Shown here: positions 6,098 through 26,078 of the stretch, piece by piece | Layout: every line of letters begins with the position of its first letter | How positions within the stretch are numbered: the first letter of the stretch is position 1 | IMG/VR virus record: IMGVR_UViG_3300019754_000011 | Coordinates: 1 to 34,089 of that record | From: a virus | DNA length: 34,089 nucleotides | Strand: one strand, 5' to 3' | Notes under the pieces: model-generated | Told to the model about the DNA's origin: nothing | The model's input: the letters and a program-made list of their open reading frames with translations, nothing else | The model's database searches: none | Position numbers and translations under genes: made by a program

Positions 6098-6124
6098 GAT
6101 AAGCCCAGTTTAGGCTTATTTTCA

Positions 6125-7315: not shown

Positions 7316-7322
7316 CTCTTAA

Positions 7323-7643: not shown

Positions 7644-7644
7644 A

Positions 7645-8421: not shown

Positions 8422-8430
8422 AATAACCTA

Positions 8431-8859
8431 TTATAAAAATCCTGCATCTCTAAAGGCTTCATTTATTGCGCTGTATAATTCTTTTCTCAAAGCCTTTCCC
8501 CAAATAAGCACTTGCCAATTTTTTTTTCTATGAATTTCTCTCATTTTTAAATTGTTTGCTTCACCATTTAAAAATATTTCAAATCCACCATTATAAACTC
8601 TAAAATTTATACTTAAAACCATTTGCGATGTAACCTGTAAGTTTACTTCACCACTGTAGCCGTTTTTTATTTTCCAAGCCTTGTATTTAGGATCATAACT
8701 CAAGAATTTCGCCCCTTCGGCATTTCGCCCCTGGTTAATTAATCTTTTTATCTTAGAGTAAATTCTTGCAGCTATTCTATCCCAGTAGTAACGCTGGAGC
8801 TTGGTTAAGCTTTCATCTAAGGCTGTAGAGTCAAAATTAAATGTAATTCCATCAGCCAT
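8431..8859 (-). CDS. Virion morphogenesis / tail completion-like protein
   Basis: A 142-residue basic protein. Residues about 41-85 follow the pattern of the phage virion-morphogenesis family (Mu gpG and P2 gpS types, and HK97 gp10): a helix, then a segment with Y.P.Y..WK...G and a strand pattern VNLQVTSQMVLSI. Those proteins help complete the head or join it to the tail. The start overlaps the end of the minor head protein by 8 bp, and the next gene follows closely, so it belongs to the head-tail joining operon. The similarity is weak and judged by eye. Confidence 0.55.
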   Translation of the reverse strand: MADGITFNFDSTALDESLTKLQRYYWDRIAARIYSKIKRLINQGRNAEGAKFLSYDPKYKAWKIKNGYSGEVNLQVTSQMVLSINFRVYNGGFEIFLNGEANNLKMREIHRKKNWQVLIWGKALRKELYSAINEAFRDAGFL

Positions 8860-9610: not shown

Positions 9611-9620
9611 TTTCTAACCT

Positions 9621-10658: not shown

Positions 10659-10660
10659 CT

Positions 10661-11332: not shown

Positions 11333-11345
11333 TTCTCAACTCCTA

Positions 11346-11954: not shown

Positions 11955-11955
11955 C

Positions 11956-13437: not shown

Positions 13438-13446
13438 CTAGCCCTC

Positions 13447-15132
13447 CTATCCAATTTGTTCAATTGTTGTAGTTCCCCAAACACCTTTCCATAAGTACGA
13501 CAAGGCATCCCCTACATGAGAGTGTTCATCTTTATTAACACTATCAGTTTTTTCATTATATGCATAACTCTCTATATTTACAATAAGAGCTCTATTTTTT
13601 TTATTTATTAATATTTTATTGTGTTTAAAATCTTGTCTCATAAGAGCATGTGTTTTATATATCTGTGTATTACTTACACCATACAAGTCAAGCCCTTCTT
13701 TTCTTAAAAGTGAAGCAATACCAAAACCTTTGAATGATACCTGAGCCTTACTTGCAATATCAACATAAATTGGGGCTTTCTCATGCCCTTGATCTTGAAA
13801 CCAGTTTTTCACATCAAGGGGCTGAAAGTCATTAACTTTAAATACATCATCTAGTATTAAAGTCCCATTAGTTTTATGTGCCCAGCCTGTTAAATAAACT
13901 TGACTAGTACCACCATTATCACCGCCTGAAACTCTTATATAATCAGGGTTTGCTCTAATCGCTCTTTCATCTAAATCAATATAATTTTCTTCATCAATAT
14001 CTTTCCAGACTCTACCGCGTCTAGCCTTGGTCGGATTAATATCAAGCTCTCTTGCCATCAACACATCATCATAGCCAATTTTAGCAGCCTGATAGTCATA
14101 CCAAGCCCTATTGCATACAGGGTTATCTTGCCATCTAAAAGTGAAATAATCCCAGTGCCTAATATCATTATCAACCTTTCTTTGATAAAAAGGAAATGAA
14201 GCACTTCTATATGTAGAATATAAAAACACCCTGTCAACAGATTGACTAAAAGAACCAAAAATATCAGTTGCTTGGTTTGGGTACATTTCACAAACTACAT
14301 CAACTTCATCAACAAAAATCACATCTCCAGCAAACCCAACAGCAGTTCCTTTACCTAATACTTGGCCTTGTAGGGAATTGCCGTTTATTACGATATGTTT
14401 CTGCCCTGAATAAAACTTTCTACCCTTTTCAAAACTCCAATACTTCTTTCTATCTTCCCAGTCTTTAGGTATAAAGATGGATTTTCTCAGTAACCACCTT
14501 ACACCCTCAAAGGTGGAGTTCATGGCGATATCTTTATCACCACCATCTAAAGAACTTAAATCTTTATGTGTTGCAAACATAACAAGAGATTTTCCATGCT
14601 TCAGACACCATGACATGGCTTGTTTCATGACAGCAGATATGCCTTGTCTTCTTGATTTTTCAATATGAATATTTTTGTCACCATTTTGGATAGCAAATAT
14701 CAACTCTAACTGATTATCAAAAGGTAGAAAACCAATTTCCCTTGATTTACCAGTTGTTCTATTTACATCATAAGAGTATCCATCAATTAATATATCAAAT
14801 AAAAACTCTTTTTCAGCTAGTGCTCTTACTGCTTTTTTTAATTTAGGATCTTGAACAATTTTTAATAATATCTTTCTTCTAAATTTAATATATTTTCTAC
14901 CAAATTTGGTATACTTTCTATTTAATTCTTTTCTTGTATAATTTTCTTTGTTTTTTTGAAATAAAGACCATTTAGATAACCAGCTCTTTAATACAGTATA
15001 TATATTTTTTGTTTGCTGGTGATGGGAATCACCAGGAACTATTTTTACTACTTTATTATCATAAAAGGAATGATTTCTTAAACTATCAGCTCTTTTATAT
15101 GCAGTATGTCTTAGTTCCTGTCTTAATCCCAT
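13447..15132 (-). CDS. terL: Terminase large subunit
   Basis: A 561-residue ATPase and nuclease that pumps DNA into the procapsid and cuts it. Residues 158-166 are the Walker A variant EKSRRQGIS, and 271-278 are Walker B with the catalytic Glu (VIFVDEVD). The nuclease domain keeps its three acidic metal ligands: D405 in GGDNGG, D458 in YVDIAS and D542 in GDALSYLW. All key residues are present, so the enzyme should be active. The first 110 residues are a basic extension. It lies between an anti-defence gene and the portal. Whether packaging is headful or cohesive-end cannot be read from the sequence. Confidence 0.95.
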   Translation of the reverse strand: MGLRQELRHTAYKRADSLRNHSFYDNKVVKIVPGDSHHQQTKNIYTVLKSWLSKWSLFQKNKENYTRKELNRKYTKFGRKYIKFRRKILLKIVQDPKLKKAVRALAEKEFLFDILIDGYSYDVNRTTGKSREIGFLPFDNQLELIFAIQNGDKNIHIEKSRRQGISAVMKQAMSWCLKHGKSLVMFATHKDLSSLDGGDKDIAMNSTFEGVRWLLRKSIFIPKDWEDRKKYWSFEKGRKFYSGQKHIVINGNSLQGQVLGKGTAVGFAGDVIFVDEVDVVCEMYPNQATDIFGSFSQSVDRVFLYSTYRSASFPFYQRKVDNDIRHWDYFTFRWQDNPVCNRAWYDYQAAKIGYDDVLMARELDINPTKARRGRVWKDIDEENYIDLDERAIRANPDYIRVSGGDNGGTSQVYLTGWAHKTNGTLILDDVFKVNDFQPLDVKNWFQDQGHEKAPIYVDIASKAQVSFKGFGIASLLRKEGLDLYGVSNTQIYKTHALMRQDFKHNKILINKKNRALIVNIESYAYNEKTDSVNKDEHSHVGDALSYLWKGVWGTTTIEQIG

Positions 15133-15142
15133 TAATTAACCT

Positions 15143-15550
15143 TTAATTTTTGTTAAAACCTTCAACTCCTCTTTTCACTCTATCTTTTTTTCTTTCTTCA
15201 ATCCACATTAAGGCTTCTGTTAATTTTTCAATTACCATTTCGTTTTCATGACAAGGGAAGTTTTTATTTAATCCTTCTATAATAGTCTTTGCAGTTTCAA
15301 TAACTGTGTCCACTTGACAACCATTTATACCACTTTCTTTAATTGGCCCATCCTGGATAGTGAAAGATAGTGAGTTTACATCATTTCTAACATAAATAAA
15401 ATTATTAGGTCTAATGTCCTTTTCAAACCACTTATAATCCATGCTTCCTGATTCATTAAATTTTTCAGGATATTTTTCCCTCAATTTATCCATTACCACT
15501 ACTTTAAATCCACCAATTTCTTTTACATTTTTTAAAGTTTCTAAAGCCAT
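15143..15550 (-). CDS. tad1: Tad1/Acb2-hairpin anti-defence protein (signal-molecule sponge)
   Basis: A 135-residue protein; the start at ATG 15550-15548 is fixed by GGAGG upstream. It matches, from memory, the Tad1 family. An N-terminal beta part ends in RPNNFIYVRNDVNSLSFTIQ (47-66). Then come QDGPIKESGINGCQVDTVIE, a long helix with NKNFPCHEN (95-103), and a second helix with ALMWIEERKKDR then RGVEG (113-131). Tad1 proteins oligomerise and soak up the cyclic ADP-ribose-type signal made by Thoeris TIR proteins, and some also bind CBASS cyclic nucleotides. The Acb2/Tad1 helical hairpin is shared by both sponge families. It sits between the terminase genes, an odd place for an accessory gene. 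Activity and ligand are not visible in the sequence. Confidence 0.75.
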   Translation of the reverse strand: MALETLKNVKEIGGFKVVVMDKLREKYPEKFNESGSMDYKWFEKDIRPNNFIYVRNDVNSLSFTIQDGPIKESGINGCQVDTVIETAKTIIEGLNKNFPCHENEMVIEKLTEALMWIEERKKDRVKRGVEGFNKN

Positions 15551-15573
15551 TTCTTTCCTCCATAAAAAGGGCA

Positions 15574-15690
15574 CTATTGCCCAAAATCTAAGTAATTATC
15601 AAAACAATCAATGTTACAAAAAATAAGACTCTTATATCTTATATATTCCCCTGTACATATTTTATCACCACAATAAAAACAAATAAACAT
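15574..15690 (-). CDS. Small zinc-finger protein (38 aa)
   Basis: ATG 15690-15688 to TAG 15576-15574. The protein has CFYCGDKIC near the start and FCNIDCFDNYL near the end: two CxxC-type pairs, like a minimal treble-clef or TRASH-type zinc finger. It fills the space between two genes and lies 2 bp after the upstream stop. No strong ribosome site is seen, so it may be translated by coupling. Role unknown. Confidence 0.6.
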   Translation of the reverse strand: MFICFYCGDKICTGEYIRYKSLIFCNIDCFDNYLDFGQ

Positions 15691-15692
15691 AA

Positions 15693-16046
15693 TTAATCTA
15701 ACCCGAAATATTTATCAATTCTAACCTGCATTTCACCATCTAGAACACCAGCTATAAAATCAATATCTAAAACCTTAAAATCTTCATCACTTGTTATTTT
15801 TTTCATTATTCTCAATATTAAGAGTTCTCTAAAATCATCACTAAACTTAAAGAAAGTATCAGGATCTTTTATATCCAGCTTGTTAAAAAAAATAGGCCTA
15901 ATTACTAATCTAGAATCCCTGCCAGTCTTAACATCTTCAAGTCTTAGTACAATTAAGTATTCACCATGATTATCATCAAAATAGGCTTGGTAACTATAAG
16001 TATCCAAAAAAGGGTATATCATATTATTAATATATATAGCTTTCAT
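15693..16046 (-). CDS. Hypothetical protein in packaging operon
   Basis: A 117-residue acidic protein, start ATG 16046-16044, chosen for the GGAG 6 nt upstream; a GTG four codons earlier overlaps that site. It is mixed alpha-beta (VLRLEDVKTGRDSRLVIRPI in the middle). It is not recognised. It lies just after the small terminase gene and before the zinc-finger and Tad1-like genes. Confidence 0.6.
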   Translation of the reverse strand: MKAIYINNMIYPFLDTYSYQAYFDDNHGEYLIVLRLEDVKTGRDSRLVIRPIFFNKLDIKDPDTFFKFSDDFRELLILRIMKKITSDEDFKVLDIDFIAGVLDGEMQVRIDKYFGLD

Positions 16047-16057
16047 TATTTTCTCCA

Positions 16058-16546
16058 CTAAATAGGATCTTCTATTTCTTCACTTAATAAATCTTCTAAA
16101 GTTTGGGCATCAGCAATCTGATCAACATCAAGATTTTCTTTTTGCTCCTGAGAACCCCAAAATGTTTTATCTAGTTTATGCAATAAAAACATTCCAACTT
16201 TTCCATCTGCTGCAACTTGCTTTTTAATAACTTTTCTTTTACCTTTTGTTATTATTTCTTCTTCAGTTTCTTCATCAACTGTAAATTCATACTCTTCAAC
16301 AGTTTCAATCAAAACCTGCCCCATAGCCTTTTTATAGAGCCCGTCCTCAATGCCTGCAAGGATAACCTCTTGATTTTTTTTTAATAAGTCTGAAAAGTCA
16401 GAATTTTCTCTTTTATATCTATAAAAACTATCTTTACTGATTGGCAAAACTTCTATTAATTGAGCTTCAGAATATCCTTTATTGATTATTAAATGCTGTA
16501 TAGCAGGGAACATCTCTTTAATTATAGGATATTTTGATTTTGCCAT
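16058..16546 (-). CDS. terS: Terminase small subunit
   Basis: A 162-residue protein. The N-terminal 55 residues form a helix-turn-helix (LIINKGYSEAQLIEVLPISK, then DSFYRYKR), the domain that recognises packaging DNA. The middle (EDGLYKKAMG) and C-terminal part (ADGKVGMFLLHK then FWG) follow the layout of phage small terminases with an oligomerisation core. The last 30 residues are acidic and would contact the large subunit. It lies three genes upstream of the large subunit, with accessory genes inserted between them. Confidence 0.8.
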   Translation of the reverse strand: MAKSKYPIIKEMFPAIQHLIINKGYSEAQLIEVLPISKDSFYRYKRENSDFSDLLKKNQEVILAGIEDGLYKKAMGQVLIETVEEYEFTVDEETEEEIITKGKRKVIKKQVAADGKVGMFLLHKLDKTFWGSQEQKENLDVDQIADAQTLEDLLSEEIEDPI

Positions 16547-16556
16547 TATCTACCTT

Positions 16557-17237
16557 TTATTCACCTTTTCCAAATCCTTCACTTAAAATCTTTTCAATTT
16601 TTGGATTATCAAAACTATCAGAAAATTTATGCTCAATCAAAGAGTTTGCATTTACGATATAATATGCAAATTCTTTTCCTTCAGAATCTTTTATATAGGT
16701 TAATAGCGGATCTTTCTCTTTTCCTTCATCTAGATATTGCCTACCCACTAATACATTTAATGATTTAGGAGAGAAAGGAAATTTAACTTTTTGAGTACTA
16801 CTAAAGCCTTCAATTTCATTTTCTTCAGTGAATACTATTTTTTCATGCATATCAAGAAATAATATTGCATTTTTACAATACACATCACCATCTTTTTTAA
16901 AAAGGTATTGATATCTTGAATTAACAGTATCACCTTTTCCAAATCCATCTTTTTCATCATCAATTGCACTTAAAGGAAAGCCTGTCAATATATTTCTTAA
17001 AGTAACAGATATTGCATTTGCAGTAACAGCAGAGTTATTATCATTCTCTTTAAAGTTTTTTGCAAATCTTTTCAGAATTGCTTCAATTTCCGTTCTGTAA
17101 TCATCTGTATAAATAATGCTGTCAGGATACTTCTTCTTAAACACCTCAATTTCTCTTCTATAAGCTTTAAGAAATCTTTGATCATAATCCTGTTTCTTTT
17201 TATTATTAATACTAGTTACTTTTTGCCCTTTTTGCAT
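16557..17237 (-). CDS. Hypothetical protein, first large gene of the late operon
   Basis: A 226-residue protein, not recognised. It has a basic N-terminus (about 1-60), a mixed middle and a Lys/Glu-rich end. The segment LRNILTGFPLSAIDDEKDGF (about 82-101) has a look shared with some recombination or RNA-processing proteins, but this is too weak for a call. It follows the small zinc-ribbon gene with a 22-bp overlap and precedes the small terminase, so it is probably co-expressed with packaging genes. Confidence 0.55.
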   Translation of the reverse strand: MQKGQKVTSINNKKKQDYDQRFLKAYRREIEVFKKKYPDSIIYTDDYRTEIEAILKRFAKNFKENDNNSAVTANAISVTLRNILTGFPLSAIDDEKDGFGKGDTVNSRYQYLFKKDGDVYCKNAILFLDMHEKIVFTEENEIEGFSSTQKVKFPFSPKSLNVLVGRQYLDEGKEKDPLLTYIKDSEGKEFAYYIVNANSLIEHKFSDSFDNPKIEKILSEGFGKGE

Positions 17238-17383
17238 AAATCCACCTTTTTAATAAAATATTTATTAGAGCAGTGAGGGCATATTATTTTTTTATTTTTT
17301 AAATTTTTAATATTTTTTTTATCTACAAGAAAAGTTTGTTCACATTTACCACATTTGATTTTATTCTTTCTATTTTCTTTCAT
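17216..17383 (-). CDS. Small zinc-ribbon protein, first gene after the late promoter
   Basis: A 55-residue, strongly basic protein with CGKC and, 22 residues later, CPHC, a classic four-Cys zinc ribbon of the type that binds nucleic acid or polymerase. The start is placed at ATG 17383-17381, with GAGG about 9 nt upstream. It is the first gene downstream of the leftward promoter at 17.4 kb, a good place for a late transcription factor, but that role is only inferred from position. Confidence 0.65.
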   Translation of the reverse strand: MKENRKNKIKCGKCEQTFLVDKKNIKNLKNKKIICPHCSNKYFIKKVDLCKKGKK

Positions 17384-17414
17384 TTTAAGCAGCCTCACCA
17401 CTCAGCACATTTAT

Positions 17415-17443
17415 ATTATTTAAGATTTTTTATAATTTGTCAA
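17415..17443 (-). promoter_or_regulatory. Candidate late promoter, leftward
   Basis: On the minus strand TTGACA (17443-17438), 17 nt, then AATAAT (17420-17415). A second TTGACA 7 nt upstream makes a direct repeat of CTTGACA that could be an operator. Predicted start is near 17408, giving a leader of about 25 nt to the zinc-ribbon gene. It diverges from the plus-strand promoter at 17472. Confidence 0.6.
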
Positions 17444-17471
17444 GTGTCAAGATTATGTTAAAAATTAAATC

Positions 17472-17500
17472 TTGATAATTAGATAATAAAAAGCTACAAT
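17472..17500 (+). promoter_or_regulatory. Strong sigma70-type promoter, rightward
   Basis: TTGATA (17472-17477), exactly 17 nt, then TACAAT (17495-17500). Predicted start near 17507, just before GGAGG (17514-17518) and the ATG at 17524. It serves a single gene. Confidence 0.75.
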
Positions 17501-17523
17501 TAAATAAGTTCTTGGAGGTATTT

Positions 17524-17970
17524 ATGCATTTACTTAAAAGAGGAGCTGAAAAACCATCTTTTAATCTTATTGTTAAAAAGTTTGGAAGTGCTGCAATGAG
17601 TAAAAAAGAGATAAAAAAAAAGAAAAAAGCAGGAAAGAATATAAATAAAGCAATAGAAAAAGAACTTAATAAAACTGAAAAAGAGGTAGATATGAGAAAC
17701 TGGATTCAAACATTTATTAATTTAGGAATTGTTACTGTAGCTATAATTGGTTTTATTTTTACAACAGGAACACAATATGAAAGAATCAATAATGGGTTAA
17801 AAGTAACAGCTAAAGGAATTGAATCAATCAAGAGTGATACAAAAGAAATAAAAGAAAACTATCATAAACTTGATAAAAGAGTTGCTTTATCAAATGGAGC
17901 AATAAAGAGCAACAAAGAACAGATTAATACAATTGTTAAGACTATGTTAGAAAAATCAAGTAAGAGATAA
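17524..17970 (+). CDS. Lone membrane protein with coiled coil (moron candidate)
   Basis: A 148-residue protein; the start at ATG 17524 has GGAGG 5 nt upstream. It has a very basic N-terminal part (about 25-55), one membrane span (about 60-80, FINLGIVTVAIIGFIFTT), then a C-terminal amphipathic coiled coil. An internal ATG at 17692, with GAGGT before it, would give about 92 residues starting at the membrane span, a topology like an inner-membrane spanin. It is the only rightward gene within the leftward block and has its own strong promoter, which marks it as a possible moron. It could act in superinfection exclusion or lysis; nothing in the sequence decides. It ends 4 bp from the convergent neighbour, with no terminator seen. 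Confidence 0.7.
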   Translation: MHLLKRGAEKPSFNLIVKKFGSAAMSKKEIKKKKKAGKNINKAIEKELNKTEKEVDMRNWIQTFINLGIVTVAIIGFIFTTGTQYERINNGLKVTAKGIESIKSDTKEIKENYHKLDKRVALSNGAIKSNKEQINTIVKTMLEKSSKR

Positions 17971-17974
17971 AATC

Positions 17975-18349
17975 CTAAACAAAAGTTTCATTTAAAATTT
18001 TATAAATATCAGGCATTGCGTTACATAAGACTATATGCTCATTTGTAGAGCTACAGCTATCAATTTTTGCTCCATGAATAGGAACAAAGGATTTTGAACT
18101 TAAGTTTTTATCAAAAGTTGCAACAGTATCATTTAAAGAGTTTTTAAGCTCAAGAAATTTTCCATCCTCTGAAACCTCTAAAATAAATTTAATGCTAACA
18201 GTCTGAAACCTTCCTGAAACTTTTGTTTTTGCATCTAAAACCTGCTTTTCAAACTTTTCATCAAAAACTCTTTGAGCTTCCTTTCTTCTTTTTGTTGCCT
18301 GCATTTCTAATTCATACAGTCTCTCTAATTCAACACTAGAATTGATCAT
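17975..18349 (-). CDS. Hypothetical protein, last gene of the 18.8-kb mini-operon
   Basis: A 124-residue protein. The start at ATG 18349-18347 follows GAGGAGGAG and overlaps the upstream gene by 14 bp. An N-terminal charged helix (LERLYELEMQATKRRKEAQR) is followed by a beta-rich part with two Cys (DSCSS and VLCNAM). Not recognised. It meets the plus-strand membrane-protein gene end to end. Confidence 0.6.
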   Translation of the reverse strand: MINSSVELERLYELEMQATKRRKEAQRVFDEKFEKQVLDAKTKVSGRFQTVSIKFILEVSEDGKFLELKNSLNDTVATFDKNLSSKSFVPIHGAKIDSCSSTNEHIVLCNAMPDIYKILNETFV

Positions 18350-18650
18350 ACTCCTCCTCTTTTTCAACTGTGGGAAATATTCTTTCTCCATCAATCATCA
18401 CTAAATCAACATCATTGTCAAGATCAAGCAGAACAGTGTCTATATAAGGCTTTTTACTAACCTTAACTTTTACATCAACTTGACCTTGTGCTTCATTCTT
18501 ACCATCACTTGATGGCTTAACCTTTGTTTTAAAGCTCATTATATTATCTTCATCTATAAAGCATTTATTCAGGTGCATTACTACAAGATTTAACTTTATG
18601 CCATCAGAAATAACTCTCCCCTTCTTCATTTTAATTAGAACTTTAAACAT
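18336..18650 (-). CDS. Hypothetical protein
   Basis: A 104-residue protein with beta-rich N-terminal half (IKLNLVVMHLNK) and an acidic C-terminus (VEKEEEYDQF). The end of the gene, GAG GAG GAG TAT GAT, doubles as the ribosome site and start codon of the next gene. Not recognised; second gene of a short leftward operon. Confidence 0.6.
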   Translation of the reverse strand: MFKVLIKMKKGRVISDGIKLNLVVMHLNKCFIDEDNIMSFKTKVKPSSDGKNEAQGQVDVKVKVSKKPYIDTVLLDLDNDVDLVMIDGERIFPTVEKEEEYDQF

Positions 18651-18659
18651 TAATTACTC

Positions 18660-18800
18660 CTATTTTGGGTTATCAATAATTTTGGATATTTTATCAACTT
18701 GCTCCTTTGTTAGCTCAATTTTCTTTAATTTTTCAATTAATACATTTTTAGGGTTTTCATACTTGCGAGGTATATTATCATTAAACAAAGGATTATTCAT
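18660..18800 (-). CDS. Small hypothetical protein (46 aa) behind an operator
   Basis: ATG 18800-18798 with GGAG 6 nt upstream, to TAG 18662-18660. The protein ends in a charged helix (LIEKLKKIELTKEQVDKISK). It is the first gene after the promoter and 14-bp inverted repeat at 18811-18851, so it may be a regulator or the target of one. Not recognised. Confidence 0.65.
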   Translation of the reverse strand: MNNPLFNDNIPRKYENPKNVLIEKLKKIELTKEQVDKISKIIDNPK

Positions 18801-18810
18801 AAAAAACTCC

Positions 18811-18846
18811 AACTAGATATTAATTCTAATCTATTAATATCTAGTT
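18811..18846. promoter_or_regulatory. 14-bp perfect inverted repeat, likely operator
   Basis: AACTAGATATTAAT (18811-18824) and its exact reverse complement (18833-18846) are separated by 8 bp. The repeat covers the spacer and -10 box of the leftward promoter at 18823-18851, so a dimeric repressor bound here would block it. An RNA hairpin is less likely to matter because the predicted transcript starts inside one arm. Confidence 0.75.
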
Positions 18847-18851
18847 GTCAA
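18823..18851 (-). promoter_or_regulatory. Leftward promoter of the 18.8-kb mini-operon
   Basis: On the minus strand TTGACA (18851-18846), exactly 17 nt, then TAGAAT (18828-18823). The predicted start near 18816 leads directly into GGAG and the 46-aa gene. The overlap with a perfect inverted repeat suggests tight control. Confidence 0.7.
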
Positions 18852-18853
18852 TT

Positions 18854-19009
18854 TTAAAATTTAGTATAAAGGCTACAGCTTAGTTTGATAACTGATATGC
18901 TTTTTTTTAATTCCCAATATTTGACTTGATACTCAAGAGGACATGCATTCACAAAAGACTGTTCATCTTCAAATAGATAAATCGCTTCTTTTTTTTCTTC
19001 TTTTTTCAT
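18854..19009 (-). CDS. Small hypothetical protein (51 aa)
   Basis: ATG 19009-19007, with GGAG 6 nt upstream and an ATGA overlap with the preceding gene, to TAA 18856-18854. The N-terminus is very basic and acidic (KKEEKKEA), and the C-terminus is Ser/Cys-rich. Not recognised. It is the last gene before the 18.8-kb promoter. Confidence 0.65.
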   Translation of the reverse strand: MKKEEKKEAIYLFEDEQSFVNACPLEYQVKYWELKKSISVIKLSCSLYTKF

Positions 19010-19524
19010 ACTAAACTCCATTTAGTTCTAATACTTGCTCTACAATAAACATAATAAATTAATGGTGATAACAATTTTCCTGACTCTGTAGCACTGCTTA
19101 AAGGCTTAAACGTGCTATCTTCAAGTATTAAAACCCAGCATTTCTTAACTATACTTTCTCTTAAAGATTTTAAGCCCTGCTTTCTTGATCTAACAATCAC
19201 ATGTTCAGGATGAGTTAAGATAAATATTTCAAACAATTCTTTTCTAGTAAACTTATAAAAAACTTCATCACCATCAAAAAACTCATTTATTATATCTTTT
19301 CTACTTGCTCTTAGAATTTGATTAGCTAAAAAAGTATCACCATTTGAATATATAAATTTAGTTTTAAATTTATCACTTTTTGTAACTTCTTTAATTTTAT
19401 CAACAATATCTTTTCTTTTTAAAGGGAAAATACCTTTATATGCATAAGTCATACAATCAGGACATTGACTACTCCCCATCATTTTACCATTTTCTTTGTT
19501 ATATCTATACTCTGTTAATTTCAT
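19006..19524 (-). CDS. Hypothetical protein with N-terminal CxxC
   Basis: A 172-residue protein with an early SSQCPDCMTY (about 18-27) and basic segments (LKRKDIVDKIKEVTK and IVRSRKQGLKSLRE). It looks like a nucleic-acid-associated protein, but no family is recognised. It is followed by a 51-aa gene with a 4-bp overlap. Confidence 0.55.
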   Translation of the reverse strand: MKLTEYRYNKENGKMMGSSQCPDCMTYAYKGIFPLKRKDIVDKIKEVTKSDKFKTKFIYSNGDTFLANQILRASRKDIINEFFDGDEVFYKFTRKELFEIFILTHPEHVIVRSRKQGLKSLRESIVKKCWVLILEDSTFKPLSSATESGKLLSPLIYYVYCRASIRTKWSLV

Positions 19525-19532
19525 TTTTTACC

Positions 19533-19823
19533 TCACTTAAAATAGTTAATAGCAATTGAAGTCAAATTTAAAACTATGCTTCCAAGAATAATTATATAAA
19601 ATAATTTTCTCTTAATATCTTTTTTTAATTTTAATTCCTGTATTTCTAAATCCTTATAATCATTTTCAATAATTTTGATACTCAAATCTTTTTTTAATTC
19701 AAATATTACTTTAGCATATTCTACAATAATATCATTAGCATTATCATTTGATTTTAAAATTAGTTTTAAATAACTTGTTAATTCTTTAGTTTCATTTATT
19801 AATTCACTTCTTCTATTATTCAT
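19533..19823 (-). CDS. Coiled-coil protein with C-terminal membrane anchor
   Basis: A 96-residue protein. Residues about 1-70 are a charged helix, followed by KRKLFYIIILGSIVLNLTSI, a single membrane span near the C-terminus. This layout resembles XhlA-type small phage proteins linked to holins, but there is no endolysin next to it. A role in lysis or at the membrane is possible, not shown. Confidence 0.55.
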   Translation of the reverse strand: MNNRRSELINETKELTSYLKLILKSNDNANDIIVEYAKVIFELKKDLSIKIIENDYKDLEIQELKLKKDIKRKLFYIIILGSIVLNLTSIAINYFK

Positions 19824-19835
19824 AATTAACTCCTT

Positions 19836-20372
19836 TTACCACAGTTTAGTAGAATGAAAATATTCTCGCAACTCTCTTTCATATCTTTCAAAATCTATAT
19901 TCAGGTTTTCACTTGGGCAATCAAAATCATGCTGCATAGCCTTTAGTATTCTTTTTATAAAAACAGTATGAATTTGAGATATTCCAATCATTGTAAAAAA
20001 TTCTTTATCTTGATAAAAATCTAAAAGTAAATTCCTTTTTACTGATTCAGATAACCCCTTATAGTCATATCCAGCAGGTGGCAAATAAGGTATACCATTT
20101 TGTCTTATTTCATTCTCATTTATTACCAAATTCTCTATATACTTATAATTTCTATCTGTTTTCATTTTTTGTTCATCAGCAATACTTATTGTTGGATTCA
20201 ACAGATACTCTCTTTTTACTTCAGGATCTCTACCATATTCAACGCAGGCATCTACACGAACTGATTCATAAAGTGCATCCATCAATATGTCAGGTCTGAA
20301 AGAATTTATTATTATTTTAACAAAATTAAACATTTTACTAAAAAAGATAAGCTTCTTATTGGTCATTTTCAT
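19836..20372 (-). CDS. Hypothetical protein
   Basis: A 178-residue protein, start at ATG 20372-20370 with AAGGAG just upstream. The N-terminus is basic and hydrophobic (KLIFFSKMFNFVKIIINSF), possibly an amphipathic membrane-binding helix; the remainder is charged and helical. Not recognised. Overlaps the preceding 42-aa gene by 17 bp. Confidence 0.55.
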   Translation of the reverse strand: MKMTNKKLIFFSKMFNFVKIIINSFRPDILMDALYESVRVDACVEYGRDPEVKREYLLNPTISIADEQKMKTDRNYKYIENLVINENEIRQNGIPYLPPAGYDYKGLSESVKRNLLLDFYQDKEFFTMIGISQIHTVFIKRILKAMQHDFDCPSENLNIDFERYERELREYFHSTKLW

Positions 20373-20484
20373 CTCTCTCCTTTTCAATCAGCTCAATAGT
20401 TTCAATTAACTTTTCAACTAAATATTCTTTATCAAAATCATAGTCCTTAACAAGCTTAATTAATTTATCAAGTAATTTATCCAT
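20356..20484 (-). CDS. Small acidic helical protein (42 aa)
   Basis: ATG 20484-20482 to TAA 20358-20356. The product is a single amphipathic helix rich in Leu, Lys, Glu and Asp (MDKLLDKLIKLVKDYDFDK). The end of the gene carries the AAGGAG ribosome site of the next gene. Not recognised. Confidence 0.55.
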   Translation of the reverse strand: MDKLLDKLIKLVKDYDFDKEYLVEKLIETIELIEKERDENDQ

Positions 20485-20485
20485 A

Positions 20486-20755
20486 CTAAACTACTTTTAC
20501 TTTTTCTTCAAAAATTTTATATTCATCTTTTAACCAAATTGCATACCTTCCCTTTATTTCATAAAAATTATGAAAAACCATATTAAAAGCTATTTCCATT
20601 TCTACTTCATTTCTTTGATTAAGCTTTAAATTGTTTTTAACCATTTTTCTTTTCACTATAACCTTCTCAAACCCTCCAAACCCAAAAAAATAAACAATAA
20701 ATATAACCGGCCCTGCTATTAAAAATAAATAAATTGATACTATAAGAAGCTCCAT
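20486..20755 (-). CDS. Small membrane protein with N-terminal span
   Basis: An 89-residue protein. Residues about 3-25 (LLIVSIYLFLIAGPVIFIVY) form one membrane span; a basic, soluble part follows (KVIVKRKMVKNN). The start overlaps the stop of the original VRR-NUC frame by one base. Function unknown; a lysis or membrane role cannot be excluded. Confidence 0.6.
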   Translation of the reverse strand: MELLIVSIYLFLIAGPVIFIVYFFGFGGFEKVIVKRKMVKNNLKLNQRNEVEMEIAFNMVFHNFYEIKGRYAIWLKDEYKIFEEKVKVV

Positions 20756-21208
20756 TATTTACCCTCCAAATACTTATTTAAAATACTAATAAAACCTTCT
20801 AAACTCCAGCAAAAATGAACATCATAACCTTCTTTTCTAAGTTTTTCATGCATTGCAACTTGCTTTTTTAAATGCTCATTTTTTTTATACTCTCCATTCT
20901 TTTCTAAGTTTTTCATGCATTGCAACTTGCTTTTTTAAATGCTCATTTTTTTTATACTCTCCATTCTTTTTATAAACTTGTGACTTGTCTCTTTTCAGCT
21001 CTATTAATAAGCCTGCATAGCTTTTATTTTTCTTAAATAACTGAAAATCTGGAAAACCTGAAAAAGGATTAACTTTCTTTCTTCTTACAGCTTGCATCAT
21101 TGTCAAGTTACCATCATCATTACTGAACTTAAAAACCAATTTTGGATGCTGATATTTAAGATAGCTAGATATTTTTAAGCTTAAGTTGTATTCGTTTTGC
21201 TTGTTCAT
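20755..21208 (-). pseudogene. VRR-NUC nuclease broken by a 67-bp tandem duplication
   Basis: The N-terminal 104 residues from ATG 21208 read as a VRR-NUC (PD-(D/E)xK) nuclease of the Holliday-junction or replication-repair type. FSGFPDFQLF contributes the metal Asp, LLIELKRDKS gives the ExK pair, and a helix (HLKKQVAMHEKLRKE) follows. Translation then runs into a second, exact copy of 67 bp and stops at W-R-V. Removing one copy restores the frame: the protein would continue RKEGYDVHFCWSLEGF and end at a TAA (20757-20755) overlapping the next start, as expected of an intact operon gene. The break is therefore recent. As written it is a 107-residue protein lacking its C-terminal helix. An assembly error is a real alternative. 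Confidence 0.75.
20831..20964. repeat. Perfect 67-bp tandem duplication
   Basis: Two identical, adjacent 67-bp units (20831-20897 and 20898-20964). Because 67 is not a multiple of three, the duplication shifts the reading frame of the nuclease gene that contains it. Absence of any mismatch means it is young, or an assembly artefact. Confidence 0.9.
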
Positions 21209-21241
21209 TTCTCTCCTTTAAAAGACTTTCATAATCAGCCT

Positions 21242-22009
21242 CTATCTATTCAAAAACCCTTTAACAATACTCTCACTAACACTTTCAAGATTTAATAAAA
21301 AATTATCACTTTTTGGAGCTGCTAACTGCTTAACTTCCATCACAGGATAATCAGGATTTACATTATAAGCCCCATCCCCAGCCCCTAAAAAAGTCATTGC
21401 TTTACTTCCTGTCAGCATTTTAATATCAGTTCCAGTATCTAAAAAATGTAAATAATTCTTAATAAATTCTTTTCTTATACTATTTAAAGCATAATCACTC
21501 ATGCTATTAATCCCATCTAAACACTTAACTTGACTTTGAATGTAAGATAAGCCTGTTTTCTTTAAAGCAGCTAATAAAGTTTTATCATCACTTTTATATC
21601 TTCCTGAGTCTCTTATACTAAACAACAAGCCTTTTTGAAGTAACCTGTTAAAAGCATTTTCAGCTTGTACCTGCTTCTTATCATTTTCTGACTGATAATT
21701 TAAAGCATTTAACAGAAAGGCTGTATAATCCATAATTTTACTTGTTTGAGAGTAGTTATTGTATGCATTTATAATCATAGTATTCATAACTTCTCTAAAA
21801 GATACCTTTTTTTCTATAGAAAGCTGGAATAATTTAATAAAAAGCAGTTCTGTTACTGCTATTGCTTTTTTTGATGCATTATCTGCATTATAAGCACTTG
21901 TTCCAATTATAAAAATTTCTACTTTATAATTTAATTCTTTTTTTAGATAATCTTTTTTTGCTTGATTATCTAAAGTATTAAATTCTATTTCATTTAGTTC
22001 TTTAAACAT
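21242..22009 (-). CDS. Hypothetical protein
   Basis: A 255-residue protein starting at ATG with AGGAG upstream. It is mostly helical and ends with Leu/Asn/Ser-rich segments (SDNFLLNLESVSESIVKGFL). Not recognised. It lies between the zinc-ribbon gene and the broken nuclease, in what appears to be a replication or recombination neighbourhood, so a DNA role is possible but unsupported. Confidence 0.5.
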   Translation of the reverse strand: MFKELNEIEFNTLDNQAKKDYLKKELNYKVEIFIIGTSAYNADNASKKAIAVTELLFIKLFQLSIEKKVSFREVMNTMIINAYNNYSQTSKIMDYTAFLLNALNYQSENDKKQVQAENAFNRLLQKGLLFSIRDSGRYKSDDKTLLAALKKTGLSYIQSQVKCLDGINSMSDYALNSIRKEFIKNYLHFLDTGTDIKMLTGSKAMTFLGAGDGAYNVNPDYPVMEVKQLAAPKSDNFLLNLESVSESIVKGFLNR

Positions 22010-22176
22010 AGTTTACTCCTCGTTATTATACACAAAGGACAATCAGTTTTTATATTATCTATTTTCTGTAAAATTTCTGTATCACTAAACCTGCCCCACT
22101 CTTTGCCAAATTCTGGTAAAACAAATAATACACCGCAATTACTGCAAGTTTTAGTAAAAACAGTTTCTCTTATCAT
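21994..22176 (-). CDS. Small zinc-ribbon protein
   Basis: A 60-residue protein with KTCSNCGVLF near the start and DCPLC about 33 residues later, the four-Cys zinc ribbon. Its ribosome site and start codon lie inside the 37-bp repeat that also precedes the neighbouring gene. Role unknown. Confidence 0.6.
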   Translation of the reverse strand: MIRETVFTKTCSNCGVLFVLPEFGKEWGRFSDTEILQKIDNIKTDCPLCIITRSKLCLKN

Positions 22177-22209
22177 TTAACCCTCCACAACTTTAAATTC
22201 AGCTTCAAT
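22173..22209. repeat. 37-bp direct repeat, left copy
   Basis: Identical to 22461-22497. On the minus strand it encodes the C-terminus IEAEFKVVEG with stop, then GGAGG and the next ATG. The two copies are 288 bp apart, exactly the length of the gene between them. Confidence 0.9.
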
Positions 22210-22464
22210 CACATTTATTAATTTATCATAAAAACCATTTTTTCTGGCAAAACTTATAACTTCTTTTTTTTCATTTTCTAAAAAACTATCATAACTTTCA
22301 ATCAAATAATCAACAAGATGCTCTTCGCAAAAATCATAAATACATGATCCCATGCTAAAAAAACTAGATATTCCTGCAAGCGACAAATCAGACTTATCAT
22401 ACATTGTCGAGTCACCACAAAAATTATTACAATCATCTATGTCACATATAGTTACAGTACTCAT
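22177..22464 (-). CDS. Cys-rich small protein inside a direct-repeat cassette
   Basis: A 95-residue protein with six Cys in the first 50 residues (TICDIDDCNNFCGD, SCIYDFCEEH), possibly a zinc site, followed by an acidic helix. Its last ten residues, IEAEFKVVEG, are identical to the end of the replisome organizer upstream. The gene is thus flanked by a 37-bp direct repeat and could have been added by recombination at that repeat. Function not recognised. Confidence 0.6.
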   Translation of the reverse strand: MSTVTICDIDDCNNFCGDSTMYDKSDLSLAGISSFFSMGSCIYDFCEEHLVDYLIESYDSFLENEKKEVISFARKNGFYDKLINVIEAEFKVVEG

Positions 22465-22497
22465 TTAACCCTCCACAACTTTAAATTCAGCTTCAAT
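22461..22497. repeat. 37-bp direct repeat, right copy
   Basis: Second copy of the repeat at 22173-22209. It covers the end of the replisome organizer gene, the ribosome site and the ATG of the Cys-rich gene. Confidence 0.9.
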
Positions 22498-23478
22498 TAT
22501 ATCTTCTCTTTTTACATTATATTTTGCATAAATTTCATCAACTTGACTTTCACCAACTTCATTCATTTTTCCGTTTGTGTCTGAATTATAAAAAAGCCAA
22601 GGCTGACTTTTAAGCTCTAATATTTCTTTTTCAACCTCAATTAAGTTGACATTAGAATCTAAGTAAACAGTAAAAAAATCATCATTAAAGAACTTATTAA
22701 CACCTAATATAAATTCTTTATCACCTTTATACTTTTCAGAATAATTTTTTATACAATTAATAATATTTTCTTTAGTATGCCTTTCTAGAATTAAAGCTAA
22801 ATCTTTTTTAGTATTATAATTAACTTTATTAGGTCTTATATGAGAGTAATAATAATTACAAATCTCTATTATAGATTCTTTAATTTTATTTCTTTTAGAG
22901 TTTAAATCTTCTTTTTGTTTAGATTTAGTCTCTGCAACTGCTTTAAATTTATCATTAAATCTACTATTCATTTCTTTATTTAACTCTATATCTTCTTTAA
23001 CTATAACTCTATCTCTTAATATATCGTTACATTTTTTGTTACTGTCCGTTACTGTAACATCTTGTAACGCGTTACTTGTAACTTTTGTAACATCTTGTAA
23101 CGCGTTACATTCTTTTTCTTGTTTTTTTCTAGCTCTATATTTTGCAACTCTTTCTTTAGAATTATCTTTTTTACCAATAAATCTTGCTATATGCTCCATA
23201 TATAAAATGCCATCATTTTCAATTATTAATCCAAACATTTTATAATAATTAATAGCTTCCTCAATAAAACTAATTTCTTTTTTAAATATTAGAGCAATCA
23301 TTTTAATATCGAAACTTACATTTTCATTAAGGATAAGATATCCATCGAATTGAATTGCTCTTGTTGCAAGTTTTAAATAAAGAAAAACAAGACTTTCCCC
23401 ATTATCAAGACTTTCTAATAGTTTTATCTCAGAGCTATCAAAAAAGTCTTGGTTGAATTTCATATAATAATTTGCCAT
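22465..23478 (-). CDS. Replisome organizer / replication initiator
   Basis: A 337-residue protein. The N-terminal 115 residues match the phage replisome-organizer N-domain pattern: YYMKFNQDFFDSSEIKLLES, then a winged-helix-like stretch ending SKERVAKYRARKKQ. These proteins bind the origin and load the helicase. The middle (about 120-150) is Asn/Asp/Thr-rich with repeated NALQDVT, coded by the origin-like repeats at 23026-23108. The C-terminal half is Lys/Glu-rich and helical. No helicase or loader gene was recognised nearby, so host DnaC/DnaB or an unrecognised small protein would be needed. Confidence 0.75.
   Translation of the reverse strand: MANYYMKFNQDFFDSSEIKLLESLDNGESLVFLYLKLATRAIQFDGYLILNENVSFDIKMIALIFKKEISFIEEAINYYKMFGLIIENDGILYMEHIARFIGKKDNSKERVAKYRARKKQEKECNALQDVTKVTSNALQDVTVTDSNKKCNDILRDRVIVKEDIELNKEMNSRFNDKFKAVAETKSKQKEDLNSKRNKIKESIIEICNYYYSHIRPNKVNYNTKKDLALILERHTKENIINCIKNYSEKYKGDKEFILGVNKFFNDDFFTVYLDSNVNLIEVEKEILELKSQPWLFYNSDTNGKMNEVGESQVDEIYAKYNVKREDIIEAEFKVVEG
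23026..23108. other. Candidate replication origin: ten GTAAC/GTTAC elements inside the initiator gene
   Basis: Ten copies of GTAAC, in both orientations, lie within 83 bp. A 23-bp unit, TGTAACATCTTGTAACGCGTTAC minus nothing but split here as TGTAACATCTTG and GTAACGCGTTAC, occurs twice exactly (23053-23075 and 23086-23108), 33 bp apart. The palindrome GTAACGCGTTAC is at 23064-23075 and 23097-23108. Clustered repeats inside an initiator gene are the usual design of phage origins (lambda O, lactococcal replisome organizers). Confidence 0.7.
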
Positions 23479-23481
23479 AGC

Positions 23482-24036
23482 CTATTCCTTAATCCATGAT
23501 TCAATAAGATTACTTAAGACCTTCCCTTTAGTAGAGTCAATCATTTTTACTTTAGCTTTAAATCTATCTAGCAAACCCCCTTCTAACTGAAATGTAACTT
23601 TTCTTAAGGCAACAGAGGTAGCAGGATGCCCAATACATTTTTTCCTAGCCTCTCCTCTTAATAGTGATGAAGCTGATAAATATAATTCTTTGCCACAAGA
23701 GCAAATACACTTCATGAAGCGTCTTCTATGCTTGTCTGATTTAGATATGCTCAAAACTGTTATTTCCCCAAAAGTTTTACCTATTAATAATCTTGTTTTA
23801 TGTTTTCCACAAGTTTTTTGACCTCTTTTTATACTGTCAGCAGAAAACTCTCCTATATACCCACACGAACACTTGCATTTTACATACTTATGATATTTTT
23901 TATCAATTCTTGCTAATGACAATACTGTTAATTCTCCAAATGTTTTACCTATTATAAAAGAAATATCTTTTTGCTTTGCTTTCATTTCTTGTTTACTAAG
24001 ATTTAACTGTATTACCTTTAAGTATTCCTCTTTCAT
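23482..24036 (-). CDS. Two zinc-ribbon repeats fused to an RHH-like C-terminus
   Basis: A 184-residue protein. Two similar units start IGKTFGELTVLSLAR (about 29) and IGKTFGEITVLSISK (about 85). Each is followed by CxCSCG (KCKCSCG, KCICSCG), a basic spacer and a further Cys. Such units occur at the start of phage AP2/HNH-type homing endonucleases, where they bind DNA. No HNH or AP2 catalytic part is present. The last 45 residues (VTFQLEGGLLDRFKAKVK, then KVLSNLIESWIKE) look like a ribbon-helix-helix. It is therefore more likely a regulator than a nuclease. It overlaps the stop of the RHH gene by one base. Confidence 0.65.
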   Translation of the reverse strand: MKEEYLKVIQLNLSKQEMKAKQKDISFIIGKTFGELTVLSLARIDKKYHKYVKCKCSCGYIGEFSADSIKRGQKTCGKHKTRLLIGKTFGEITVLSISKSDKHRRRFMKCICSCGKELYLSASSLLRGEARKKCIGHPATSVALRKVTFQLEGGLLDRFKAKVKMIDSTKGKVLSNLIESWIKE

Positions 24037-24218
24037 TATTTATCCCCTAGATACTGCTCTATTGCAGTATTTAAAAATTCTGATATAGTTATCTTTTTAC
24101 CATTTTTACCAGCATTTTTTAGTTTTTTTTCAAGTGCTTTCTTGTTCTCTTTAGGCATTTGAAAGTTAAATAAAACCTTTTCAATTACCTTTTTGAATTT
24201 AATGTTTAGTTTAGCCAA
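24036..24218 (-). CDS. Ribbon-helix-helix regulator
   Basis: A 60-residue protein. The start is TTG 24218-24216, fixed by AAGGAGG 5 nt upstream; a GTG at 24245 lies before that site and has none of its own. The strand-helix-helix pattern is clear: VLFNFQMPKENKKALEKKLK, then ITISEFLNTAIEQYL, as in Arc/CopG/ParD DNA-binding dimers. It lies at the divergent control region, with a repeated TGTTAATAT in its own promoter, so autoregulation is likely. It could be the main early-to-late switch of the phage. Confidence 0.7.
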   Translation of the reverse strand: MAKLNIKFKKVIEKVLFNFQMPKENKKALEKKLKNAGKNGKKITISEFLNTAIEQYLGDK

Positions 24219-24235
24219 TTTATCCTCCTTAAAAA

Positions 24236-24258
24236 ATATTAACACTAATATATTAACA
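24236..24258. promoter_or_regulatory. Direct repeat TGTTAATAT x2, candidate RHH operator
   Basis: On the minus strand TGTTAATAT occurs at 24258-24250 and 24244-24236, 14 bp apart. The first overlaps the predicted -10 box and the second covers the predicted transcript start of the RHH gene. RHH dimers commonly bind such half-site pairs. Confidence 0.5.
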
Positions 24259-24323: not shown

Positions 24324-24352
24324 TTGACAAACAATTAAATAAAAGTTATAAA
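24324..24352 (+). promoter_or_regulatory. Early promoter, rightward
   Basis: TTGACA (24324-24329), exactly 17 nt, TATAAA (24347-24352). The predicted start near 24359 places the transcript 5' end at the foot of the first leader hairpin. Confidence 0.8.
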
Positions 24353-24359
24353 TAAGCAG

Positions 24360-24412
24360 ATGGAAAGTTTAAGGGGCTTTTCATTCATTAACTTTACCCT
24401 GAAAGGAGAAAT
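24360..24412 (+). promoter_or_regulatory. Structured leader, copy 1
   Basis: Stem ATGGAAAG/CTTTTCAT (8 bp, one G-T pair), loop TTTAAGGGG (24368-24376), then ACCCT and GAAAGGAGA before ATG 24413. Loop AGGG can pair with CCCT (24397-24400), forming a possible pseudoknot close to the ribosome site. Confidence 0.7.
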
Positions 24413-24763
24413 ATGAAAACTTCAAAACTAACTAAGCTAATCAAAAAGACAATCAATCATCACCAAGCTATTACAACTGCAACTCAAGAAAAGTTAAGAA
24501 ATGAAAATTTTTCATTTAATACAATAGGTAAATATTTAGGTATTAAGTCTAAAACATTATTTATTATAAGAAAAGAAAAAAATAATGTTCCTGTTTTTTA
24601 TGTTGGCATTGGGACTGCTGCTGAAAAATATGGCTACTATGAGCAAAACTTTGGTTTTACTTTAGAGATATCTGAAAAAATGTTTAATACTTTAAAAAAA
24701 GAAGCAGTTGATGGTGATAACATTTATGTAGATTTATCAGATAAAAAAAATATCTGGTTATAA
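24413..24763 (+). CDS. First early protein, hypothetical
   Basis: A 116-residue protein with a basic N-terminus (KTSKLTKLIKKTINHHQAIT) and a beta-rich C-terminus. Not recognised. It is the first gene of the rightward early operon and is preceded by leader copy 1. A regulatory role or a role in host takeover would fit its place, but nothing in the sequence shows it. Confidence 0.6.
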   Translation: MKTSKLTKLIKKTINHHQAITTATQEKLRNENFSFNTIGKYLGIKSKTLFIIRKEKNNVPVFYVGIGTAAEKYGYYEQNFGFTLEISEKMFNTLKKEAVDGDNIYVDLSDKKNIWL

Positions 24764-24769
24764 TCAACC

Positions 24770-24828
24770 AGCTCTTGCAATTTTAAGGGGATTGCAAGAG
24801 CTTCATTTTTACCCTGGAAGGAGAAGTA
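24770..24828 (+). promoter_or_regulatory. Structured leader, copy 2
   Basis: A perfect 12-bp stem AGCTCTTGCAAT/ATTGCAAGAGCT, loop TTTAAGGGG (24782-24790), then ACCCT and GGAAGGAGA before ATG 24829. A TATAAT at 24759-24764, without a good -35 box, would start a transcript at the foot of the stem. Confidence 0.75.
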
Positions 24829-25074
24829 ATGAAAGAAGGTATAGAAATTGTATTCGGGAAAGGTGAAGTAGGGGTGAACTCCCTCGTAACAAATGATAAA
24901 ACTCTAGGATTTATGATTTTTACACCTATATCTGAAGTTGAAATAGGTGAAACTATTGAGCAAAAAGAAATTAGCGAGTTGATAGACAGTATTGTTGCAA
25001 TAATAGAGTTTCACAGAAAGGAAAGTATAAAGGTAGTAATTGATGGACTGCAGTCTATTTATGATAAAATGTGA
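24829..25074 (+). CDS. Small early protein, hypothetical
   Basis: An 81-residue protein, beta-rich at first (IEIVFGKGEVGVNS) with an acidic C-terminal helix. Not recognised. Its expression is set by leader copy 2. Confidence 0.55.
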   Translation: MKEGIEIVFGKGEVGVNSLVTNDKTLGFMIFTPISEVEIGETIEQKEISELIDSIVAIIEFHRKESIKVVIDGLQSIYDKM

Positions 25075-25089
25075 AGTAAAACTAAGCAT

Positions 25090-25145
25090 CTTTGATAATT
25101 TTAAGGGGGTTATCAGAGCTTTATCTTTACCCTGAAAGGAGAGTT
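25090..25145 (+). promoter_or_regulatory. Structured leader, copy 3
   Basis: Stem CTTTGATAAT/GTTATCAGAG (10 bp, two G-T pairs), loop TTTAAGGGG (25100-25108), then ACCCT and GAAAGGAGA before ATG 25146. The stem sequence differs from copies 1 and 2 while pairing is kept. Confidence 0.7.
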
Positions 25146-26027
25146 ATGAGTAAATCATCAGAAAACATCAATAAAGCTAAGCTGGCAATGAAGCTAGCTG
25201 AAATATCTGCTTTAATGGTAGGTATTCAAAAAGATGGAAAGAACCAACAACAAAAATTTGCTTATATTGGATATGAGCAAATAAACGCTCTACTATCTAA
25301 ATACATGCTAGATAAAAAAGTTGTGATAATTCCTGAAATAACTGAAAGTCAAAGAAGTGTTTATGAATACCAGGACAAGTATAATAATGCAAAAAGAATA
25401 AATACTGTAAGCCTGAAAGCCACTTTCGAAATTATAGATTGTGAAACTGGATACACTATAATTAAGAGCTGGGAAGGTGAAGCAAGTGATTATAATGATA
25501 AAGCATTTAGTAAAGCTTCAACTGAAATCCAAAAAAGATTTTATGCAAAGCTGTTCAATATTACATCAGGTGAAGCTGATGCTGATGAAGAAACTATTGA
25601 GATTAAAAATAATAGAAATAGCAATAATAATTATCAAAACAATAACTATCGAACTAGTGGGGAAAACCCAATAGTTCAAAAACCTGTAAGAAAATTAACA
25701 CCTGCTCAGGTGTTTGATAAAAAAATAAAAACATGGATTGTTAAAAATCCAGCTGATAAAATTCAAAAAAGAGATTTATCAAAAGTTTTATTAGATTCCT
25801 TTAATGTAAGCAAATTGATTGAAGTAAATGCAAATGATTATGAAAGGTTTGAGCACGATCTAAAAGCAAGATTTGCTCTTGCTAAAAAAGTCTTAATAGA
25901 GTTTCAAGTTGAAAATTATAGTCAAATACAAGAAAAGAATTTAGTAATTGATTATTATCAAAGAATTGAAGAAATGATAAGTAATGATAGTGAACAATTG
26001 ACAAGAGATTACCAGCAAGCACTTTAA
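25146..26027 (+). CDS. erf: ERF-family single-strand annealing recombinase
   Basis: A 293-residue protein, start at ATG 25146 after AAAGGAG. The N-terminal 165 residues follow the ERF superfamily pattern: MVGIQKDGKNQQQKFAYIGY, a long middle with strands, then WEGEASDYNDKAFSKASTEI and ITSGEADADEE. ERF proteins anneal single-stranded DNA in phage recombination and help circularise the genome. A low-complexity Asn-rich linker (about 175-195) leads to a helical C-terminal part. No partner exonuclease was recognised, unless an intact VRR-NUC ancestor served. Confidence 0.8.
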   Translation: MSKSSENINKAKLAMKLAEISALMVGIQKDGKNQQQKFAYIGYEQINALLSKYMLDKKVVIIPEITESQRSVYEYQDKYNNAKRINTVSLKATFEIIDCETGYTIIKSWEGEASDYNDKAFSKASTEIQKRFYAKLFNITSGEADADEETIEIKNNRNSNNNYQNNNYRTSGENPIVQKPVRKLTPAQVFDKKIKTWIVKNPADKIQKRDLSKVLLDSFNVSKLIEVNANDYERFEHDLKARFALAKKVLIEFQVENYSQIQEKNLVIDYYQRIEEMISNDSEQLTRDYQQAL

Positions 26028-26031
26028 TGAC

Positions 26032-26078
26032 TTTAAGGGGCTAAAATAGATTAGCCCCTATTTTTTATGGAGAACAAT
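26032..26078 (+). terminator. Terminator / leader copy 4
   Basis: TTTAAGGGG (26032-26040) again lies 38 nt before a start codon (ATG 26079). Here AGGGGCTAA (26036-26044) pairs with TTAGCCCCT (26051-26059) to give a 9-bp stem followed by A and six T (26061-26066), an intrinsic terminator. It would limit transcription past the recombinase. The flanking stem of copies 1-3 is absent. Confidence 0.65.

Follow-up and report, generated by a model that had tools for sequence, protein, structure and literature searches.

What does a nine-base sequence do when it recurs ahead of one early gene after another? The window, the whole stretch of DNA analysed here, comprises 34,089 bases and comes from an IMG/VR virus record. 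A search of both of its strands found four exact copies of TTTAAGGGG, at 24368, 24782, 25100 and 26032, all on the plus strand and all where an earlier note on this DNA had placed them. Shuffled sequences hold 0.35 copies on average, and one shuffle in 100 reached four. The distance of 36–38 nt that the note had read between each copy and the next rightward early gene start was borne out for all four. The loop ends 36 nt before the ATG in copy 1, 38 nt in copy 2 and 37 nt in copy 3, and by inspection copy 4 lies 38 nt before an ATG at 26079. The perfect antisense of the loop, CCCCTTAAA, does not occur elsewhere in the window on either strand.

The first three copies lie in hairpins, each followed by a ribosome site. 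A predicted early promoter, TTGACA-17 nt-TATAAA (24324..24352, plus strand), was read by inspection and is conserved in a second phage; it is not among the promoters listed by a consensus promoter scan. Divergent from it, a small protein on the minus strand (24036-24245) weakly matches Arc-like repressors (E 0.055) and is a candidate early repressor. The transcription start predicted from this inspection, about G24359, is the first paired base of the copy 1 stem, in agreement with the suggestion that copy 1 begins where the early RNA does. The copy 1 hairpin (24359..24385, plus strand) has 9-bp arms at 24359-24367 and 24377-24385, two of the pairs G-U, around the loop TTTAAGGGG at 24368-24376. 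Its pre-SD tail and ribosome site, TTTACCCTGAAAGGAGA, occupy 24393..24409 on the same strand, with CCCT at 24397-24400, and lead into early gene 1 (24413..24763, plus strand), whose 116-aa product belongs to no known family.

Copies 2 and 3 repeat this layout on the plus strand. The copy 2 hairpin (24770..24802) has 12-bp arms at 24770-24781 and 24791-24802 without G-U pairs, a loop at 24782-24790 and a folding energy of −18.5 kcal/mol. Its tail and ribosome site, TTTACCCTGGAAGGAGA, lie at 24808..24824 (CCCT at 24812-24815), ahead of early gene 2 (24829..25074, 81 aa), a weak match to phrog_31900, a family of unknown function. A perfect TATAAT at 24759-24764, at the gene 1 stop codon just 5′ of copy 2, has a possible transcription start at the first stem base of that copy; it is without a good −35 element and is not kept in the second phage. 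The copy 3 hairpin (25090..25118) has 10-bp arms at 25090-25099 and 25109-25118, two pairs being G-U, and a loop at 25100-25108. Its tail and ribosome site, again TTTACCCTGAAAGGAGA, lie at 25126..25142 (CCCT at 25130-25133), and early gene 3 (25146..26027) encodes an ERF-family single-strand annealing protein of 293 aa. All three copies thus carry TTTACCCTG(A/G)AAGGAG and then a start codon, the CCCT and purine-rich ribosome site described earlier.

Such stems are rare in this genome, and the loop that they close may itself be partly paired. Stems this long surround 0.05% (copy 1), 0.003% (copy 2) and 0.02% (copy 3) of its 9-nt windows. The claim that the 9-mer is a hairpin loop in copies 1–3 therefore stands as far as the perfect stems of 9, 12 and 10 bp go, but the loop may not be open: in the predicted fold three U-G pairs form within its nine bases and leave only AAG as a triloop. 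The predicted nested fold of copy 1 can also change when longer window context is included. Forbidding the hairpin in nested folding hardly altered the predicted accessibility of the SD, and this modelling argues against the hairpin by itself acting as a simple SD switch or occluder.

The fourth copy is an intrinsic terminator and not a member of the leader structure. Its 9-mer (26032-26040) lies within 26032..26059 on the plus strand, where AGGGG forms the 5′ arm of a terminator at 26036-26059 followed by ATTTTTT, confirming the AGGGG:CCCCT pairing proposed before. A leader-type hairpin is absent there, with a stem of 0 bp; the left half of the copy resembles copy 3 at 84% over 19 nt. Copy 2 also looks like a terminator, with 15 pairs and a TCATTTTT tail, so the repeats might be intercistronic terminators or attenuators that grade transcription along the early operon. 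Copies 1 and 3, however, do not appear in the list of terminator-like structures, copy 1 sits at the transcription start and lacks a U-tract (TCATTAAC), and a terminator needs neither a fixed loop nor a CCCTG tail. We consider this reading quite improbable. Intrinsic termination as the common function of the copies was rejected, as a G+C-rich hairpin with a U-tract is found only at copies 2 and 4.

Compensatory changes in the stems indicate that the structure is under selection as RNA. In a loop-anchored alignment of five distinct rows from two phages, whose copies may have exchanged sequence, 94.9% of cells are paired and 6 of 12 pairs have changed on both sides. None of 500 shuffles reached the pairing or the covariation score, and sliding the partners by 1–3 columns destroyed the pairing. 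Between copies 2 and 3, the inner ten pairs include three two-sided changes (U-A to G-C, G-C to A-U and C-G to U-A) and two pairs that become G-U in copy 3; no inner pair is broken, and one outer pair is. The stems had been called unrelated in sequence, which does not hold, since copies 2 and 3 align base by base; that pairing is kept with covariation, G-U pairs included, does hold, in copies 1–3 and in the second phage. The arms differ between copies far more than the loop and tail do (Fisher p 0.0026 to 3e-7), and across the leaders of both phages the loop and pre-SD tail are invariant except for one base. A selected RNA element almost certainly exists here, and covariation in the second phage also supports the view of it as a structure repeated before consecutive early genes.

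The strand on which this structure forms bears on whether the repeats act as DNA. Repeats that share one orientation and lie near gene starts, in an operon beside a divergent gene with a weak Arc-like match, could suggest stoperator-like repressor sites or some other DNA-binding site. Yet the arms vary while keeping their pairing, and the G-U pairs work only in the mRNA sense, which makes the structure strand-specific. Copy 1 folds at −8.4 kcal/mol in the mRNA sense versus −0.8 on the other strand, and copy 3 at −8.8 versus −1.8 kcal/mol. Both therefore fold well only as mRNA-sense RNA, which makes a DNA-binding site unlikely. G-U pairs and strand bias together leave a DNA operator strongly disfavoured, at the very bottom of our ranking.

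A second phage preserves the leaders while exchanging genes behind them. When viral_contigs was scanned for the pattern, one genuine relative emerged, IMGVR_UViG_3300019759_000004 (G001; 33,853 bp), which is probably circular given its 123-base direct terminal repeat. It has three leaders in the same place, and at the equivalent site a promoter, TTGACA-17-TATAGT. Leader 1 is identical in the two phages over the aligned region; leaders 2 and 3 of G001 carry the stem of window copy 2, and the stem pairs are retained, as the earlier note had asked of a homologous phage. The genes after G001 leaders 1 and 2 have no match to their window counterparts at 1e-4, so that even the identical first leader precedes unrelated genes. 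Leader 3 precedes the ERF annealing protein, the third early gene, in both phages, and the two proteins are 38% identical; early proteins common to the two phages are about 30–50% identical. The leaders are islands of 91–95% DNA identity with unrelated genes between them. Structure, strand and position are thus conserved, independently of the downstream gene.

Searches further afield added no other carrier. Those of the remaining pattern matches in viral_contigs and genome_contigs that could be read (L027 not among them) lack the hairpin, and we ascribe such matches to chance. The covariance-model search that the earlier note had proposed was run with model R1, and neither the window nor the halves of G001 yielded another full-length copy; low scorers were tail-only or chance matches. 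The element is absent from a distant relative, G002 (L049), where the best hit had an E of 0.06 and TTTAAGGGG does not occur; a tail-fibre-like protein is all that links that phage to the window. Near relatives sought by protein search came down to G001 and L019; the latter represents the phage of the window itself (99.99% over 13245-22569) and does not include the early region. Matches to the replisome organiser suggest that the host is probably a member of the Bacillota or Fusobacteriota. The putative structural proteins tested from window positions 777-17237 match no Pfam family above the cut-off, and only one of them matches a PHROG family (tail fibre), and that weakly, which points to a poorly known phage group.

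Our preferred reading, at a probability of about 0.42, is a translational operator recognised by a single RNA-binding factor acting in trans. The rightward early operon would have one and the same cis-acting mRNA leader element ahead of its first, second and third cistrons. Its parts would be a stem that matters for its pairing only, the fixed loop UUUAAGGGG, a spacer rich in U and a tail, likewise fixed, of UUUACCCUGRAAGGAG, in which the ribosome site lies, with the start codon at a constant distance. Hairpin and pre-SD tail would form a single recognition site for which the stem is only a scaffold, and one factor, from phage or host, would set the translation of the three early genes jointly. 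Pairing of the loop with CCCU could add a pseudoknot, and the paired 5′ end of copy 1 would additionally protect the mRNA. As in an operator, the hairpin lies upstream of and near the ribosome site, and both loop sequence and stem pairing are conserved in five distinct rows from two phages. From this we infer action on translation and reading by a trans-acting factor; the ERF annealing protein encoded after copy 3 would be a candidate autoregulator. Copy 1 is identical in the two phages but their shared early proteins are only about 30–50% identical, which makes co-evolution with a phage factor less than obvious; a host factor fits equally. The element is present in only two phages, and the constant loop could also come from homogenisation between copies.

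By sequence alone, a trans-acting binder is inseparable from an intrinsic role in stability or translation. The three roles put forward in the earlier note, namely 5′ protection, a repressor target and coordinated translation control, would each fit the sequence. A leader with no specific binder might protect the mRNA through its 5′ hairpin and strong ribosome site and insulate that site, and its SD-like loop, AAGGGG, might offer ribosomes a standby site. Computed pairing with the anti-SD is −6.1 kcal/mol for the loop and −12.7 kcal/mol for the SD, and the predicted start of the transcript at a paired base fits the same idea. In B. subtilis, long mRNAs are stabilised when a hairpin or ribosome site lies close to their 5′ end, and RppH requires at least two unpaired 5′ nucleotides (PMC3997798); by analogy, the paired end of copy 1 would resist RppH and 5′ decay. 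Stabilisers of the B. subtilis type, such as the aprE leader, likewise place a 5′-terminal hairpin before a strong ribosome site (PMC3997798), but they do not repeat before internal cistrons and do not require a fixed loop. The probable Bacillota or Fusobacteriota host suits such a stabiliser, which needs no phage factor and sits well with unrelated genes behind the leaders. It leaves the invariance of nine loop bases and the CCCUG tail unexplained, however, and the internal copies 2 and 3 would need a processing cut. We rate an intrinsic leader as possible but somewhat unlikely.

An H-type pseudoknot might instead act alone, as a translation switch or ribosome positioner, through pairing of loop AGGG with the CCCU before the SD. 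One pairing would then explain the invariance of both loop and tail. The spacing in the pseudoknot suggested earlier proved feasible (L1 4 nt, L2 1 nt, L3 9–11 nt), but the covariation that would favour it is absent, since AGGG and CCCT are invariant in all copies, and by a rough estimate its energy lies between −1.2 and +0.8 kcal/mol relative to the best plain hairpin. Complementarity of 4 nt within about 20 nt is moreover not rare, and the U-G pairs inside the loop compete with it. As the sole mechanism the pseudoknot is decidedly unlikely, though it is compatible with the operator.

The translational operators known from phages are for the most part single sites, each controlling one gene. 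The translational operator proposed here most resembles two of them in T4. In the gp43 operator, loop and upper bases are conserved between T4 and RB69, and sequence at the ribosome site is also recognised (PMC3014915). The likeness lies in a hairpin some 40 nt ahead of the start, a conserved loop and recognition that reaches the ribosome site; the gp43 operator differs in being a single copy before its own gene and in its loop, UAAC rather than UUUAAGGGG, and our element is not known to involve a DNA polymerase. The gp32 operator, to which a single-stranded-DNA-binding protein binds, takes the form of a pseudoknot on the 5′ side of the ribosome site (PMC535899). Here too a pseudoknot may lie 5′ of the ribosome site, which is rich in A and U, and a single-strand-binding or annealing protein follows one copy. 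Our element differs in having three copies, two of them before genes unrelated to single-stranded-DNA-binding proteins, and ERF is no gp32 homologue.

The leaders match no Rfam family. A scan of the window with 4227 Rfam covariance models at E up to 5 left copies 1–3 without a match and gave only chance matches, among them a sub-threshold SraG match (25.6 bits against a cut-off of 50) on the opposite strand at copy 4; G001 has no match at the gathering cut-off. The literature search found no such repeated leader, and publications that matched the 9-mer looked incidental by title. The earlier view that no element of this form had been described thus agrees with Rfam. Positions 24367-24382 of copy 1, GTTTAAGGGGCTTTTC, equal 14 of 16 bases of GTTTTTGGGGCTTTTC, the published M13/f1 gene II operator of gene V protein (PMC5405960). 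Copies 2 and 3 differ in sharing only its TTTxxGGGG core, and 0.44 matches with at most three mismatches are expected in the window by chance; the likeness is a lead only and could be fortuitous.

Repeats at gene starts are also known from cluster K mycobacteriophages, in which the short conserved SAS/ESAS repeats lie at many gene starts of the non-structural half and have no known function (PMC3203893). The SAS/ESAS sequence is the 13-bp GGGATAGGAGCCC at start codons; half of the repeats have upstream inverted repeats of conserved sequence, and mRNA hairpins had little backing in the authors' view (PMC3203893). In the leaders studied here, by contrast, the arms vary and the pairing is conserved, and direct reading found no GGGATAGGAGCCC in them. 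Phage cis-acting RNA leaders are known; what we regard as new here is their repeated, gene-independent use.

That independence raises the question of whether the leaders persist chiefly as patches of homology where genes meet, for exchange of early genes by annealing recombination. Between the two phages, the leader-bounded genes 1 and 2 have been replaced. The operon encodes ERF, the leaders are the conserved islands amid unrelated genes, and spacer variants are shared crosswise, window copy 2 matching G001 copy 3 and window copy 3 matching G001 copy 2, while the end from SD to start is common to copy 3 of both. This crosswise sharing, which comes down to two linked bases, suggests recombination at the leaders. 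Recombination alone selects neither compensatory stem changes nor strand bias, however, and we give homology patches as the main reason for conservation very little credence. Both roles could coexist in a cargo-independent RNA regulon, where one factor would read the UUUAAGGGG loop in three leaders that also serve as gene-exchange joints; we think this extended model fairly unlikely. If it is true, any gene placed behind a leader comes under shared post-transcriptional control. A covariation-backed leader that precedes three early cistrons in a row and persists when the genes are swapped would be a modular means of bringing new early genes under shared control after transcription. It also offers a concrete RNA element, open to testing, in a phage group that is otherwise uncharacterised and most of whose genes have no match among known families.

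Repeated gene borders also occur outside the early operon, as a leftward junction and blocks in G002 show. A 37-nt repeat, 97% identical, lies at 22173-22209 and 22461-22497 among minus-strand genes, at two consecutive junctions of the leftward operon; its presence there is a further point for homology patches. It spans a gene end, a ribosome site and the next gene start, in a region that is highly conserved in G001. Conserved proteins of 60, 95 and 255 aa are encoded at 21242-22464. G002 carries a promoter-plus-leader block (89%) at 11319-11415 and 13764-13860 and a downstream terminator-like block (86%) at 11890-11933 and 14180-14223. These blocks border two insertions of one or two genes among opposite-strand genes, with unrelated genes inside, like moron cassettes. 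Elsewhere in the window, positions 20830-20970 hold a tandem duplication with a 67-nt offset, giving two identical 74-nt copies in or beside a VRR-NUC-like gene (20885-21208). The duplication may shift the reading frame, since 67 is not divisible by 3.
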